28,133 bases of DNA from a virus: positions 1-28,133 of IMG/VR virus record IMGVR_UViG_3300018041_000048. One strand, written 5' to 3'. Numbering within the stretch: the first letter of the stretch is position 1; each line of letters opens with the position of its first letter. The notes below the pieces were generated by a model. That model worked only from the letters and a program-made list of their open reading frames with translations. It ran no database searches and was not told where the DNA came from. The translations under genes and the position numbers were made by a program. Shown piece by piece: positions 20,255 to 27,497 of this stretch.

Positions 20255-21145
20255 ATGGGGTACTTAAAAGGATTAACCGGTAAAGACATAATTGTAAGTC
20301 CTCTTACAGTTCATAAAACTTTTTCATACTCAGGAACTGTACCTACTACCATTACAAAGGGGCAACCAGTCATATTCGTAGCAGATGAAGATTCGGGTGT
20401 AGATACCGAACAATATAGATTTTTTAAGTCTATACGTCAATTATACTACGGAAATTATGTTAATACCACAGATGGAAAAATCCGTAATGTTAATCTTCCT
20501 CAATATAATTCTGATGGGACTGTAACGGGAGCAGTTAGAAATAATATATATGAAAATAATATTTCCTCTATAGAGGAATTGAGATATTATGATACATCTA
20601 CCGCATCAACTAGAGAATATTACATATTTTCTATTCCCCGCTCCCAAATAGGGGATTATATAAAACCCGGGAGTTTTTTATCTGGGGTGGTTAGTAGTGA
20701 GGTTATTACTCCTATAGCGGATGATGGAGAAGGTAATATATATGATTCTAGTAATCAATGGATAGGGAATATAATATATTCTGCGGGTCTTGTTATTTTT
20801 ACTAATGAAAATGGAAGGGGATTTCTTAATTTTACTTTATCTGATCCTTCTTGGAAATCTTCTTACACAATATACGAAACCCAATATAAATGTACTGTAG
20901 GTGCTAGTGAATTAAATTATTCATTAAACCCTAGCCTTTTAAAAGAAAATGGCCTTAACCATATCCTAGAATCAGGTAGTATAGAATACCAAGATTTTGT
21001 AACAGGATCTTACTTTAACCCCTATGCCACAGCAGTAGGACTTTATAACGATGATAAAGAACTTTTAGCGGTTGGTAAATTATCCCAACCCCTCCCCTTA
21101 TCTAAAGAAGTAGATACAACAATATTAGTAAATATAGATAGATGA
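20255..21145 (+). CDS. Tail/fibre structural protein, paralogue B (296 aa)
   Basis: A 296-residue protein sharing the C-terminal domain (218-296) of the preceding protein: SELNYSLNPSL, then a 10-residue longer linker, then TAVGLYNDDKELLAVGKLSQ. The N-terminal part is different and aromatic (residues 60-80, FFKSIRQLYYGNYV; 120-145, EELRYYDTSTASTREYYIFS). This suggests a duplication of the attachment domain with replacement of the distal part, as is common in fibre evolution. The ATG overlaps nothing; its TGA stop overlaps the next start as ATGA, joining the structural and replication blocks in one unit. Confidence 0.7.
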   Translation: MGYLKGLTGKDIIVSPLTVHKTFSYSGTVPTTITKGQPVIFVADEDSGVDTEQYRFFKSIRQLYYGNYVNTTDGKIRNVNLPQYNSDGTVTGAVRNNIYENNISSIEELRYYDTSTASTREYYIFSIPRSQIGDYIKPGSFLSGVVSSEVITPIADDGEGNIYDSSNQWIGNIIYSAGLVIFTNENGRGFLNFTLSDPSWKSSYTIYETQYKCTVGASELNYSLNPSLLKENGLNHILESGSIEYQDFVTGSYFNPYATAVGLYNDDKELLAVGKLSQPLPLSKEVDTTILVNIDR

Positions 21146-21591
21146 ATTGGTTATATAATGAACAAGAAATTACAGACATATCACAATTTCCCCCAAACAC
21201 ATTTGGGTTTGTATATGAGGTAATCGATCCCGAAGGGAAAAAATATATAGGAAAAAAAGTCCTATTTCATAACCAAAAACGTAAGAAAACTCGAGCAGAG
21301 TTAGCCGAACAAGTTGGAAGGGGACGTAAATCAATCCATAAAATAATAACTAAAGAAAGTGATTGGAAAACATATTATGGATCAAATACTCATCTTAAAA
21401 AACGTCTTGCAGAAGGAGAAGTTACGCTGAAAGATTTACACAGACAAGTTCTTGAGCTCGCTTTCAATAAAAAACACCTTACATACCTCGAAACTAAATA
21501 TCTATTCCAGCTTGAAGTATTAGAACAACCTGAAAAGTATTATAACGATAATATACTTGGTAAATTCTTTACCTCAGACTTTGATATTTAA
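21142..21591 (+). CDS. SegE-like GIY-YIG endonuclease-family protein
   Basis: A 149-residue protein with the GIY-YIG layout: GFVYEVIDPEGKKYIGKK covers residues 22-39, with GFVY in place of 'GIY' and KYIG as 'YIG'. The conserved Glu (117, in LETKYLF) and the ending YYNDNILGKF (133-142) match SegE-like phage proteins. The middle (KKTRAELAEQVGRGRKS) is basic and could contact DNA. Seg proteins are free-standing homing-type endonucleases in T4, but the conserved position of this family near the primase in related phages would also fit a housekeeping role in DNA metabolism. Function therefore uncertain; fold assignment good. Confidence 0.8.
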   Translation: MNWLYNEQEITDISQFPPNTFGFVYEVIDPEGKKYIGKKVLFHNQKRKKTRAELAEQVGRGRKSIHKIITKESDWKTYYGSNTHLKKRLAEGEVTLKDLHRQVLELAFNKKHLTYLETKYLFQLEVLEQPEKYYNDNILGKFFTSDFDI

Positions 21592-23322: not shown

Positions 23323-24117
23323 GTGAAATTGTATGATATCTTAAAAGAAATACAAGGTAAACCTAAAGCTATTATATTAGCGGGTGCCCCTGGTGCTGGT
23401 AAGGGGTATATTTTAAAAGGCTTAGATTTAGGAGGTTTAAAAGTGTTAAATGTGGATAACATCTACATTGATTTGCTTAAAAAAGCTAATGTATCTTTAG
23501 ACCTAAAAAATGCCACCCCAGAAGAAAGAAGTGAACAGGCTAAACAAATGGCTGCTGCTAATAAAGAATTTAAAGGCAATATAGCTGCTACTATTGAAGG
23601 TAAAGAATCATTTGTTTTAGATGGTACTGCGGCTTCACTTAAAAAAACCTCTGAACTAAAATCAGAATTAGAAGAAGCAGGATATGAAGTATTTATGCTT
23701 TATGTTTATACTGATTTAGAGCGTTCATTAAAACAAAACCAAGATAGGTTTGAAAAATCGGGAGGTGAAGATAGAAGTTTAGCACCTGCTATTGTAATGA
23801 GAACATGGAAAAGTGTAACTCAAAATTATGCTCCCTATAAAAGTTTATTTGGTGATAATTTTGTTTCTGTAGCTAATACTTTAGATGATGAAAAATTAAG
23901 TGACTTAGAATCTATAGTAACTAAATATCTTAAACCTTTTACTCCTAAAGGTACTAAGCCTAAAACCCCTGCCCAACAAGCTAAATCTGATGCTAAAAAA
24001 GCTAAAGAAGCAGGGCAAATAAAAACGCTACTGAGCGACAAAGGAGTAAAAGATATAATTGACAACTCAGTATCTAAAGAAGAAGCCCAATCTAAATTGA
24101 AATCTTTTTTGGCATGA
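23323..24117 (+). CDS. P-loop kinase, zeta-toxin-like, with a capsid-targeting-like N-terminus
   Basis: A 264-residue protein starting at GTG, chosen because the N-terminus MKLYDILKEIQGK then matches the first gene's MKLYEVYTEILSE. Residues 16-34 hold the strand and Walker A motif (IILAGAPGAGKG, P-loop 21-28). Asp45 in NVDN and VLDGT (98-102) fit the catalytic or Walker B positions, and the basic region with Arg142 and Arg151 fits a lid. This matches AAA_33/zeta-toxin-type kinases, which phosphorylate small molecules such as UDP-sugars or nucleotides. Residues 205-232 are Lys/Pro/Ala-rich linker, then a short helical tail. It overlaps the giant protein by four bases (ATGA). Substrate unknown; injection into the host is inference. 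Confidence 0.8.
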   Translation: MKLYDILKEIQGKPKAIILAGAPGAGKGYILKGLDLGGLKVLNVDNIYIDLLKKANVSLDLKNATPEERSEQAKQMAAANKEFKGNIAATIEGKESFVLDGTAASLKKTSELKSELEEAGYEVFMLYVYTDLERSLKQNQDRFEKSGGEDRSLAPAIVMRTWKSVTQNYAPYKSLFGDNFVSVANTLDDEKLSDLESIVTKYLKPFTPKGTKPKTPAQQAKSDAKKAKEAGQIKTLLSDKGVKDIIDNSVSKEEAQSKLKSFLA

Positions 24118-27100
24118 ATAGTTTAACTAAAGCATTAATAGAAGGTCTTATAGATGAGAATGAATCTTTTAATGGGAAAATAGTAGGAATGTTTGGAGGA
24201 GGATTTAAACCTCCTACTATTGGTCACTTAGAAGTAGTTCAAAAAGCTCTTAGTGATTATCCTGAAATGGATGAATTAATTGTTTTAGTTGGAAGTGGAG
24301 TTAGAAATTCTATAAGTCAAGAAGAGTCACTTGCTATTTGGGATATCTATAAAAAATCTCTCCCAAGTAAAGTAAAAATAATGGCTTCCCCTAAAAATAA
24401 ACCTCCTATTGGTGCTATCTATTCATATGCTAAAAAAAATCCTAATGAAAGAATATACTGGTTTTTAGGTGAACGTGAAGGAAATGAAGGTGATGCTGAG
24501 GATATTGTAAATCGTACTAAATCTCTTCGTAAACTTGTATATCAAAATGTAAAAGTTAAAAAAATAGTAACGGGGGGAGCAGTTAGTGGTACTAAAGCAA
24601 GACAAGCAGTTTTAAATAAAGATAAAGAAGCATTCCTTCAATATATTCCTGATATTCCCGAAACGGATGAAATTTGGGATATGTTAACTAATGTAGTTAA
24701 AGAACAATATTTACAAGAACGTATAGCATATGATGCTGAAACGAGAATGCAAACCCGTTTTTTAATGAAACAATTCCTTAAAACTATAGGTACAAAAGTT
24801 GAAGATAGCACTGAAGGTACTTTAGTAGGAAAAAAATATGAATTAGAATATGGGTTTTACCCCATGAAAAAAGGATTAGGATTTATGCCCTTTAAGGTAG
24901 AAGGTTCAGCTGGTCCTAAAGATATAGCAATTGAAATAAAGTACAACCCCGAATTACTTGATAAAAAATTATATAGCGAATTAAGCGCTGAATTAAGAAA
25001 TTCTGTAAGACACGAATTAGAACACTTTGCCCAATACCACGCTGAAAAAGGAGTTAGACCTGGAGAGGATGGAGTAAACCAAGATGATTTACCTGATGTA
25101 GAGTACCTCACACTTGACTATGAAATCCCAGGTCACATTCAAGGATTAAGAACTAAAGCAAAAGCTAAAAAAATTAGTTTACAACAAGCTATAGATGACT
25201 TATTTGATAGTGCTGAGTATGACTTAGACCTTGATGAAGAAGATTTTGTAAGGGAAACATGGATGAATTGGTTAAAAACCAATATGCCTGGCGTTTCTTT
25301 AACTAAAATAAAAGAAGGTAGTGCTATACCTAAAAATGTAAATCCTGATGAATTACGTAAAGGTATTGAAGTAGAAAAAGAACATACTGATAACCCTAAA
25401 ATAGCATTAAAAATTGCTTTAGATCATTTAAAAGAAGACCCTAAATATTATACTAAACTAGCTACATTAGGGCTAGAAGAAGGACCTAATATTAAAGAAG
25501 AACAATTAGATGAAGGTGTAGATTTAATTAATGATCTTATAAATAGTGGGGCATTAGATTGGCTTATAGAATGGATTTATAGTGATCGCTTTAAATATAT
25601 GGATATTGAATCTCAAAGATTTATAGCTCAATTAGAAAATGAAACATGGAGAAAAGAATTCTCTGATAGTGATGCATTTAAAGAATTTAGAAAAATGTTA
25701 GGTGGTTCTATTCTATATAGCAGATTACAACTCCTTTTTCAAAAAGGTTTTCCACTTGGTAATAAAGAAAAAACACTACAAACTTTTGAAAAATTAAAAA
25801 ATCATCCTGTTATAGGTAGAATAGGAAAAGCTATTATAAATACTATAGCAGGTACTCCTTTAGCAGCTGAAGTAGCTGCTGATTCTTTTAAAAAAGGTTA
25901 TTCTGAATTCTTTAATATGATGGAAAAGGCCCAATTTATAAAAATATTGGATAATATGCCTAATAAAATTAAAGAAAAACTTAGACAACAATCTGATGAA
26001 ATTTTAAAAAGTACCCAATTATCTGAAGTTGTTGCTAATGAATATCTTGACCAACAAGATGTGCAAGATTTAGATAGACTAGCAGACACAGAGTTAAACC
26101 CAATAGATATAGACCTTTCAGGAAATCACTTTTTTGATAGATTAAATGATCCTAGAAATGCTCCTGAAATTGATTATCTTGAATTAGAAGATTTTTTTAC
26201 TAAATTAGGAGATAATAGAGAAGAATTTATTGATTTTCTTAACAAGTATAAAAGTGTAGTTGCTACTGATATTGAAACTAATATTAATATCCCTTTTATG
26301 AAAATGGCTAATAAAGCTATTGCTAAAACCATTATGCGTAAAAGGAATTTTCAAACACCTGATGTAAAAGTTGAGCTAGAAGAAGAAGTACCTCAAGATG
26401 TAATTAATAGTTTTGATATCCAAGATACATTAGTTCCCGAAGTATGGGATAATGAACAGCTAAAACCAGAGGTTAGGGAAAAATTACTCCAAATAGCACA
26501 AGACTTTTTTGACTCTTTAGAATTACCAAAAGGTACAAAACTAAAAGACATTAAACTTACAGGCAGTCTAGCCAACTATAATTGGTCTAAATTCTCAGAT
26601 TTTGACTTACATTTAGTATTAGACTTTTCAGAAATAGACGATGATGAAGAGTTTGTAAGAAATTATTTTATGGCTAAAAAAGGCATTTGGAATGATGCTC
26701 ACGATATTACTATTTATGGTTTCCCTGTAGAAATTTACGTAGAAAATGAAGGAGAAAGCCACACAGCATCAGGCCTTTACTCAATTCTAAATGATGAGTG
26801 GATTGTTATTCCTAAAAAACAGGAAGTAATGATCGATAAAGATGATATTTCTACTAAAGCAGAAGATTATATTTCTCAAACAGAAGAAGTACAAAAACTT
26901 TATGATGAGGGAAAATATGAAGAAGTAATCATTAAAGTAGATAAAATTAAAGAACGCCTCCGTAACATGCGCTCATCAGGCTTAGAAAAAGGAGGGGAGT
27001 ATAGTGTAGAAAATTTAGCATTTAAGGTATTAAGAAGATCAGACATTATAGGACAATTAAATGATTTAAAATCTCAATCATACGATACTATAATGACTTT

Positions 27101-27497
27101 AAGTGAAAATATCTCCCCTGAAGATCTAAATCTTAATATTATCTCATTAACTCAATATATGGGCAATAATGGTTTAGATCTAAAACCTTACCCTAAGGTT
27201 AAACTTATTAAAAACGATATTAAGAATGCTGAGGATTTATTAGGTAAAACTGCTTATTATGATCCTAATGCTCAATTAGTTGTATTATATACAATGGGGA
27301 GACACCCCAAAGATATTTTACGTTCATATGCTCACGAATTAATTCATCACCATCAAAATTTAAGTGGTACTTTACAACCATTCCAAACTACTAATACAAA
27401 TGAAGATAGTAATTTAGATGGAATTGAACGTCAAGCTTATGAAGAAGGGAATATCTTATTTAGAAACTGGGAAGATCAAATAAAAAATGAAAAGTAA
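24114..27497 (+). CDS. Giant multi-enzyme protein: HIGH nucleotidyltransferase, zincin, DUF5661, pol-beta nucleotidyltransferase, zincin
   Basis: An 1127-residue protein with several unrelated domains. Residues 1-20 are a helical leader (MNSLTKALIEGLIDEN). Residues 22-190 are a nucleotidylyltransferase: GMFGGGFKPPTIGHLE (25-40, T/HxGH motif) and VSGTKARQA (157-165, 'ISSTxxR'-like). Residues about 200-390 contain HELEH at 300-304, a zincin-type site. Residues about 408-450 match DUF5661 (LRKGIEVEKEHTDNPKIAL, then DHLKEDPKYYTKL). Residues 460-660 are helical. Residues 670-700 (NHFFDRLNDPRNAPEIDY) begin a small unnamed module. Residues 780-900 are a pol-beta-type nucleotidyltransferase (LTGSLANYNWSKFSDFDLHL, with Gly817, Ser818, Asp829, Asp831). 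Residues 1020-1127 carry HELIHHHQ (1074-1081), probably with Glu105-type third ligand near 1105 or 1110. It could be processed into separate enzymes. Confidence 0.85.
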   Translation: MNSLTKALIEGLIDENESFNGKIVGMFGGGFKPPTIGHLEVVQKALSDYPEMDELIVLVGSGVRNSISQEESLAIWDIYKKSLPSKVKIMASPKNKPPIGAIYSYAKKNPNERIYWFLGEREGNEGDAEDIVNRTKSLRKLVYQNVKVKKIVTGGAVSGTKARQAVLNKDKEAFLQYIPDIPETDEIWDMLTNVVKEQYLQERIAYDAETRMQTRFLMKQFLKTIGTKVEDSTEGTLVGKKYELEYGFYPMKKGLGFMPFKVEGSAGPKDIAIEIKYNPELLDKKLYSELSAELRNSVRHELEHFAQYHAEKGVRPGEDGVNQDDLPDVEYLTLDYEIPGHIQGLRTKAKAKKISLQQAIDDLFDSAEYDLDLDEEDFVRETWMNWLKTNMPGVSLTKIKEGSAIPKNVNPDELRKGIEVEKEHTDNPKIALKIALDHLKEDPKYYTKLATLGLEEGPNIKEEQLDEGVDLINDLINSGALDWLIEWIYSDRFKYMDIESQRFIAQLENETWRKEFSDSDAFKEFRKMLGGSILYSRLQLLFQKGFPLGNKEKTLQTFEKLKNHPVIGRIGKAIINTIAGTPLAAEVAADSFKKGYSEFFNMMEKAQFIKILDNMPNKIKEKLRQQSDEILKSTQLSEVVANEYLDQQDVQDLDRLADTELNPIDIDLSGNHFFDRLNDPRNAPEIDYLELEDFFTKLGDNREEFIDFLNKYKSVVATDIETNINIPFMKMANKAIAKTIMRKRNFQTPDVKVELEEEVPQDVINSFDIQDTLVPEVWDNEQLKPEVREKLLQIAQDFFDSLELPKGTKLKDIKLTGSLANYNWSKFSDFDLHLVLDFSEIDDDEEFVRNYFMAKKGIWNDAHDITIYGFPVEIYVENEGESHTASGLYSILNDEWIVIPKKQEVMIDKDDISTKAEDYISQTEEVQKLYDEGKYEEVIIKVDKIKERLRNMRSSGLEKGGEYSVENLAFKVLRRSDIIGQLNDLKSQSYDTIMTLSENISPEDLNLNIISLTQYMGNNGLDLKPYPKVKLIKNDIKNAEDLLGKTAYYDPNAQLVVLYTMGRHPKDILRSYAHELIHHHQNLSGTLQPFQTTNTNEDSNLDGIERQAYEEGNILFRNWEDQIKNEK

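Follow-up and report, generated by a model that had tools for sequence, protein, structure and literature searches.

Polyvalent proteins are large chains that join enzyme domains of unrelated kinds, include at least one and often several zincins, and vary in architecture through shuffling; for them, injection and the release of domains through cutting by the embedded zincins have been proposed (Iyer et al., 2017; PMC5512222). Proteolytic processing of packaged proteins is also described in the T4 head, where the prohead protease gp21 cuts after L/I-X-E and removes leaders of 7-65 residues, gp23 loses 65 residues, and the 10-residue capsid-targeting sequence (CTS) of IPIII suffices to load foreign proteins into the head (PMC9026906). 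Related giant-phage proteases likewise cut after glutamate (PMC5694885). Here we compare with these systems a 1127-residue open reading frame (ORF) at 24114-27497 (+) of a 28,133-nucleotide stretch (the window), which is a 28 kb IMG/VR fragment (IMGVR_UViG_3300018041_000048). The frame has an ATG start and is open across all 1127 codons. Judged by analogy with T4, the best and simplest explanation of this gene would be a polyprotein that is packaged into the head, cleaved there between its modules by the prohead protease, and injected; we give this reading, jointly with a T4-related marine myovirus as the host virus of the ORF, a probability of roughly 0.6.

A prohead-protease-type motif at the joints

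The modules and junctions of the chain are listed below in order. Confidence in structural models is given as the predicted local distance difference test score (pLDDT), and NTase stands for nucleotidyltransferase.

24114-24158 (+), N-terminal leader MNSLTKALIEGLIDE, candidate CTS; helix 3-12, then disordered (pLDDT <50 at 12-17)
24174-24704 (+), HIGH-superfamily nucleotidylyltransferase (PPAT/NMNAT-like fold), residues 21-197; fold, profile matches and motifs
24696-24719 (+), junction HIGH/zinB, VKE197/Q and LQE202/R
24720-25310 (+), zinB, HExEH zincin-like domain, residues 203-399 (HELEH 300-304); invariant motif, helix 284-310
25308-25316 (+), junction zinB/DUF5661, IKE401/G
25335-25466 (+), DUF5661, residues 408-451; Pfam PF18905 3e-11, above cut-off (match 412-451)
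25473-25514 (+), junction DUF5661/helical, LEE456/G, IKE462/E and LDE467/G
25515-26027 (+), helical segment, residues 468-638; weak phrog_3311
26019-26027 (+), junction helical/HFFDR, LSE638/V
26028-26384 (+), HFFDR domain, residues 639-757, possible RegB/DUF4258-like (BECR) RNase; HFFDR at 672, phrog_23027
26376-26384 (+), junction HFFDR/pol-beta, LEE757/E
26388-27101 (+), pol-beta NTase, residues 759-996 (catalytic D829, D831, E873); phrog_36119 4e-47
27099-27107 (+), junction pol-beta/zinA, LSE998/N
27126-27494 (+), zinA, C-terminal HExxH..E zincin, residues 1005-1127 (H1074, H1078, E1105); HELIHHHQ at 1074

All six joints of the window protein, and its leader, carry a motif of [L/I]xE type. 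The pattern was first spotted by eye in relatives, where LNEG, LTEG, IKEG and similar strings mark the borders between modules and close the leader. Across 129 non-redundant proteins, [LIV]xE occurs at 228 of 243 joints, compared with a mean of 128 (standard deviation 6.5, maximum 144) in 300 shuffles; most sites have K, N, E, T or Q at P2. The motif ranks strongest among 160 [LIV]-gap-residue patterns (z 14.5; runner-up 7.3), and [LI]xE[AGSC] is found 90 times in linkers where 17.4 are expected, while lying at or below expectation within most domains. A hold-out sample of 105 proteins, dissimilar to the ones that first revealed the motif, gave the same picture for the published T4 gp21 motif: [LI]xE stands at 148 of 184 joints (80.3 expected, standard deviation 6.1), its distance to the next domain varies, and [LI]xD, [LI]E and [LI]xxE show no enrichment at these joints.

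A protease of the matching kind is encoded by relatives. A gp21 homolog and the major capsid protein (MCP) occur together in the same six of eight long relatives, and Flavobacterium phage immuto carries gp21-type protease and T4-type capsid genes, annotated gp21 (gene 200) and gp23. The MCP of relatives has a conserved V[S/T/V]E at about residue 60, directly ahead of a variable stretch; this VxE appears to stand where a cut would be expected from the 65 residues lost by T4 gp23. Close to the N-terminus of their prohead protease, LxE[G/S] is likewise conserved.

The leader, MNxLxKxLIxxLLxE, precedes the HIGH domain in most of 144 relatives and stays, internally, where another domain is fused ahead of HIGH. 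It looks like a T4 CTS; by itself it is weak evidence, because the N-terminal 24 residues show no enrichment of [LIVF]xE across the whole immuto genome (69 vs 62). In the immuto block from tail to terminase that holds the gene for the chain, 10 of 23 proteins have CTS-like N-termini (0.7 expected) and in the tail genes 0 of 14 do, by a strict pattern defined after those N-termini had been viewed, which lessens the weight of this count for head packaging. A 5'-nucleotidase is among the proteins of the block with such N-termini (loci L001 and L362; genes 169-194).

The chain thus shares with the T4 internal head proteins and Alt a short hydrophobic N-terminal leader ending in [L/I]xE, a proposed role as injected enzyme cargo and, in relatives, T4-related head genes with a gp21-type protease. 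It differs in that the T4 proteins are single proteins trimmed at their ends, whereas here the motif lies at every joint. We infer packaging, cutting and injection from T4. Like the CTS in T4, the N-terminal leader would target the chain to the core of the prohead. As the head matures, a gp21-type protease would then cleave on the C-terminal side of the glutamate in [L/I/V]-x-E, both at the leader and at every joint. The products left in the head would be separate enzymes: a PPAT/NMNAT-type adenylyltransferase, a pair of metallopeptidases, a pol-beta NTase, DUF5661 and possibly an RNase (HFFDR). They would be injected along with the DNA and would act at an early stage on nucleotides, RNA or proteins of the host. 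Shuffling between phages would follow, since a cut site at its flank would be enough for any module to be added.

Modules, their shuffling and their genomic setting

An earlier note, made without database searches, had read this frame as several enzymes in an unusual combination. The ORF is real and has every motif at the residue named there: GGFKPPTIGH at 29, HELEH at 300, HFFDR at 672, GSLANYNWSKFSDFDLH at 817 and HELIHHHQ at 1074. Two HExxH motifs arose in 0 of 5000 shuffles of the ORF composition. The joining of several enzymes in one chain is genuine, as judged by profiles, folds and conserved catalytic residues. Alignments built from relatives with the same module order were used; fragment alignments that misplaced modules of different families were set aside.

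The HIGH domain carries GGFKPPTIGH and SGTKAR, which correspond to the HxGH-type and [S/T]xxR motifs, and GxFxPxxxGH is kept in 137 of 151 relatives. Its confident AlphaFold model aligns with E. coli PPAT over 154 residues (VIA-align Z 18.3) and ends at residue 197, and a profile of the N-terminal half (23 sequences) matches NMNAT, PPAT and NadD in the PDB. The pol-beta part retains SDxDLH in 76 of 78 relatives, with SDxDLH and VE invariant and G817, D829, D831 and E873, which supply the GS..DxD pattern and the third carboxylate of pol-beta NTases, unchanged in five aligned sequences; its fairly confident model resembles minimal NTases/AadA with a modest Z of about 6-7. For zinA, HExxH is present in 147 of 147 relatives and HExxH..E..A in 146 of 147. 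Its model is also fairly confident and resembles Wss1/Spartan (Z 8) and IrrE (Z 6.9), which are modest scores; its structure matches also include a toxin protease domain, a generic gluzincin fold match. It has weak M91/M78 matches as well. No convincing match came from searching the PDB with profiles of pol-beta and zinA. In zinB, HExEH is present in 110 of 111 relatives, and RHExEH and E337 are invariant in eight aligned sequences. The topology of the zinB model is plausible for a zincin-like fold (pLDDT about 70-85 for the most part, below 50 in a loop near 311-323); by itself zinB was not matched to a known structure, the VIA-align rows of the N-terminal half being taken up by HIGH.

Matching folds, which the earlier note had looked to structure prediction for, are therefore seen for HIGH, pol-beta and zinA and are plausible for zinB; the models do not extend to the helical part (468-638), and that of HFFDR is of low confidence (pLDDT about 30-73). 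On the whole ORF, Pfam gives a clear DUF5661 and weak matches to a cytidylyltransferase-like HIGH motif and an NTase palm. The HFFDR domain has invariant residues (H33, R37, R42-N43, T100 and M102 of the aligned piece) and weak Pfam matches to RegB (0.002) and DUF4258 (0.0035), in single members only, a resemblance that may point to an RNase. Phage phiM12 carries an HFFDR homolog; virion proteomics of this phage was looked for in the literature and not found. The helical segment, which has a weak phrog_3311 match, gave only a self match among the loci searched.

We surveyed relatives with hidden Markov models for eleven modules over 362 sequences, taken from public phages and from five scans of IMG/VR. 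Among the 112 non-redundant full-length relatives with a HIGH domain, 45 different module orders occur, and HIGH comes first in 110 of the 112. The exact order of the window protein was seen once in the survey, in that protein alone; zinB precedes zinA here but follows it in most relatives. Even near relatives, with 85-95% identity in neighbouring genes, differ in module cargo. The exact architecture is new, and its class is already known.

In Caulobacter phage Cr30 (locus L039, 2151-4212), DUF5661, a TagD-type HIGH enzyme and a pol-beta NTase are separate genes within 2 kb, which supports the chain as an assembly of free-standing enzymes. Cr30 thus has a solo DUF5661 gene, and solo pol-beta NTase homologs occur in Maribacter, Cr30 and cyanophages. 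Elsewhere, DUF5661 lies inside a DUF2213 protein just downstream of a Vibrio phage terminase gene (L041, 2407-3675), and at L123 (2305-4378) the chain is split into two adjoining ORFs, HIGH-DUF5661 and zinB-HFFDR-zinA. Two short modules, a zinc-ribbon CDNCxWSWKIKDGGDDLYxCHKCGHDN and GTGKKPKGSGRRLY.., recur in many shuffled proteins (L014, L019, L003, L018), the latter also as small separate ORFs. A second, different minimal NTase-like domain (GSVKAGSKADFGDLD) is fused ahead of HIGH in immuto (L001, 10270-11100) and in a dozen or more relatives.

In the window, T4-type baseplate genes are followed by a GIY-YIG endonuclease, a DnaG-type primase, a PD-(D/E)XK exonuclease, a zeta-toxin-like kinase and the 1127-residue ORF. 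The order from GIY-YIG to the gene for the chain is the same in about 30 syntenic relatives, immuto among them, and the phage of the window is related to marine Bacteroidetes phages. In immuto the gene for the chain, number 182, lies between the tail spike and terminase genes. In two long relatives it is on the same strand as the tail genes and downstream of them, about 18-20 kb from gp21 and MCP, yet adjoins the primase and exonuclease. The kinase feature is:

23323-24117 (+), zeta-toxin-like P-loop kinase; Pfam PF06414 5e-18, 4-nt overlap with the ORF start

A leader, KLYDILKE/I, precedes the P-loop of this kinase, and an LxE leader is found in 20 of 21 distinct ortholog N-termini; as orthologs have an LLKE-type leader immediately ahead of the P-loop, the kinase may be a second head-packaged protein. 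A gene at 21142-21591, considered as a pathway partner under its phrog_447 label 'NAD synthetase', was rejected, since Pfam gives a SegE-type GIY-YIG endonuclease (1e-24). Compared with phage NadR/NMNAT-type salvage enzymes of nicotinamide adenine dinucleotide (NAD) metabolism (PMC9503650), the locus is alike in its HIGH nucleotidylyltransferase, its P-loop kinase gene next door and the NadR annotation of the immuto homolog; it is unlike them in that the nearest fold is PPAT and the kinase is zeta-toxin-like and a separate gene.

Weighing the readings

Several observations weigh against a packaged chain cut by the prohead protease. There are no head genes on the window's own 28 kb fragment, so its own protease is unseen, and the leader is absent in some of the 144 relatives. 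[LIV]xE also occurs within domains of the window protein (e.g., starts 118, 181, 373, 439, 787 and 945); as the motif is short and also lies inside domains, accessibility must decide cutting, and a predicted helix at 184-222 spans the HIGH/zinB sites. The reversed pattern Ex[LI] is mildly enriched in the hold-out sample (101 vs 81), and the motif baselines are shuffled joints, other patterns and domain interiors rather than joints of ordinary multi-domain proteins.

The position of the gene after the primase and exonuclease, beside the kinase, would also suit an intracellular enzyme, and solo pol-beta homologs sit among replication genes, by DNA polymerase and UvsX. This setting favours an uncut multifunctional protein, in the infected cell or in the virion, in which [LIV]xE would cap structural elements at the joints or reflect a preference of folding or of linkers; N4 vRNAP provides a precedent for packaging without cutting. 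We consider this unlikely, given the specificity of the motif, its depletion within most domains and the variable spacing to the next domain.

A rather improbable reading is that the embedded zincins cut the joints themselves, before packaging or after injection. This was the suggestion of the earlier note, and it is not new, having been published for polyvalent proteins (PMC5512222). The zincin ligands are fully conserved, zinA is present in 99 of the 112 relatives, 69 of them carry at least two zincins, and a zincin of [LIV]xE specificity would yield an identical junction pattern. However, the zincins are themselves part of the shuffled cargo, the joint motif is that of gp21, and 10 of the 112 lack a recognised zincin; relatives of this kind keep the motif at four of five scorable junctions, a small sample in which other zincins could be missed. 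A polyprotein reading is likely; cutting by the two zincins has no positive sign in the sequence. A conserved DNA linker that drives shuffling at joints with no protein role would fit the heavy shuffling at a single locus, but is highly improbable because the joint sites are encoded by 136 distinct DNA 9-mers over 346 motif instances, with differing L/I/V codons, which points to selection on the protein and away from a linker repeated as DNA.

The polyvalent proteins remain close to the chain as proposed here, through its domain composition, its shuffling and its zinA, the zincin being the commonest domain of that class. Differences lie in the constant N-terminal HIGH domain and leader, in a pol-beta NTase within a phage chain, such enzymes having been reported only in conjugative-element polyvalent proteins (PMC5512222), and in joints bearing a prohead-protease-type motif, so that release need not depend on embedded zincins. 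No polyvalent-specific domain had a Pfam match in the window protein. Phage versions of that class are near late genes; this gene is downstream of tail genes but adjoins the primase and exonuclease. No link between polyvalent proteins and prohead-protease or capsid-targeting sites was found in the open-access literature.

Possible targets and wider meaning

We infer the target of each module from family membership, and these assignments are guesses. For the HIGH enzyme, resynthesis of NAD or of a similar dinucleotide is conceivable; the pol-beta enzyme could transfer nucleotides to an RNA or a protein of the host, and the zincins may cut host proteins. Phage NAD salvage is known (PMC9503650).

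The pattern may extend to a plug-in polyprotein of marine T4-related phages, in which any effector module with prohead-protease sites at its flanks could be added downstream of a capsid-targeting leader, and one gene would load the head with a changing set of separate injected enzymes; we regard the chances of this as about even. The usual assumption, for which direct proof is scarce, has been that the metallopeptidases within polyvalent proteins do the cutting, and a joint code matching the capsid protease is a testable alternative that ties effector loading to head maturation. The code could also serve as a search tool, with modules separated by prohead-protease sites pointing to injected proteins in unannotated phage genomes. 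If true, the plug-in polyprotein would be a bacterial-virus counterpart of animal-virus polyproteins, with the capsid protease as its processing enzyme, and the chain would also be a natural cargo-loading system.

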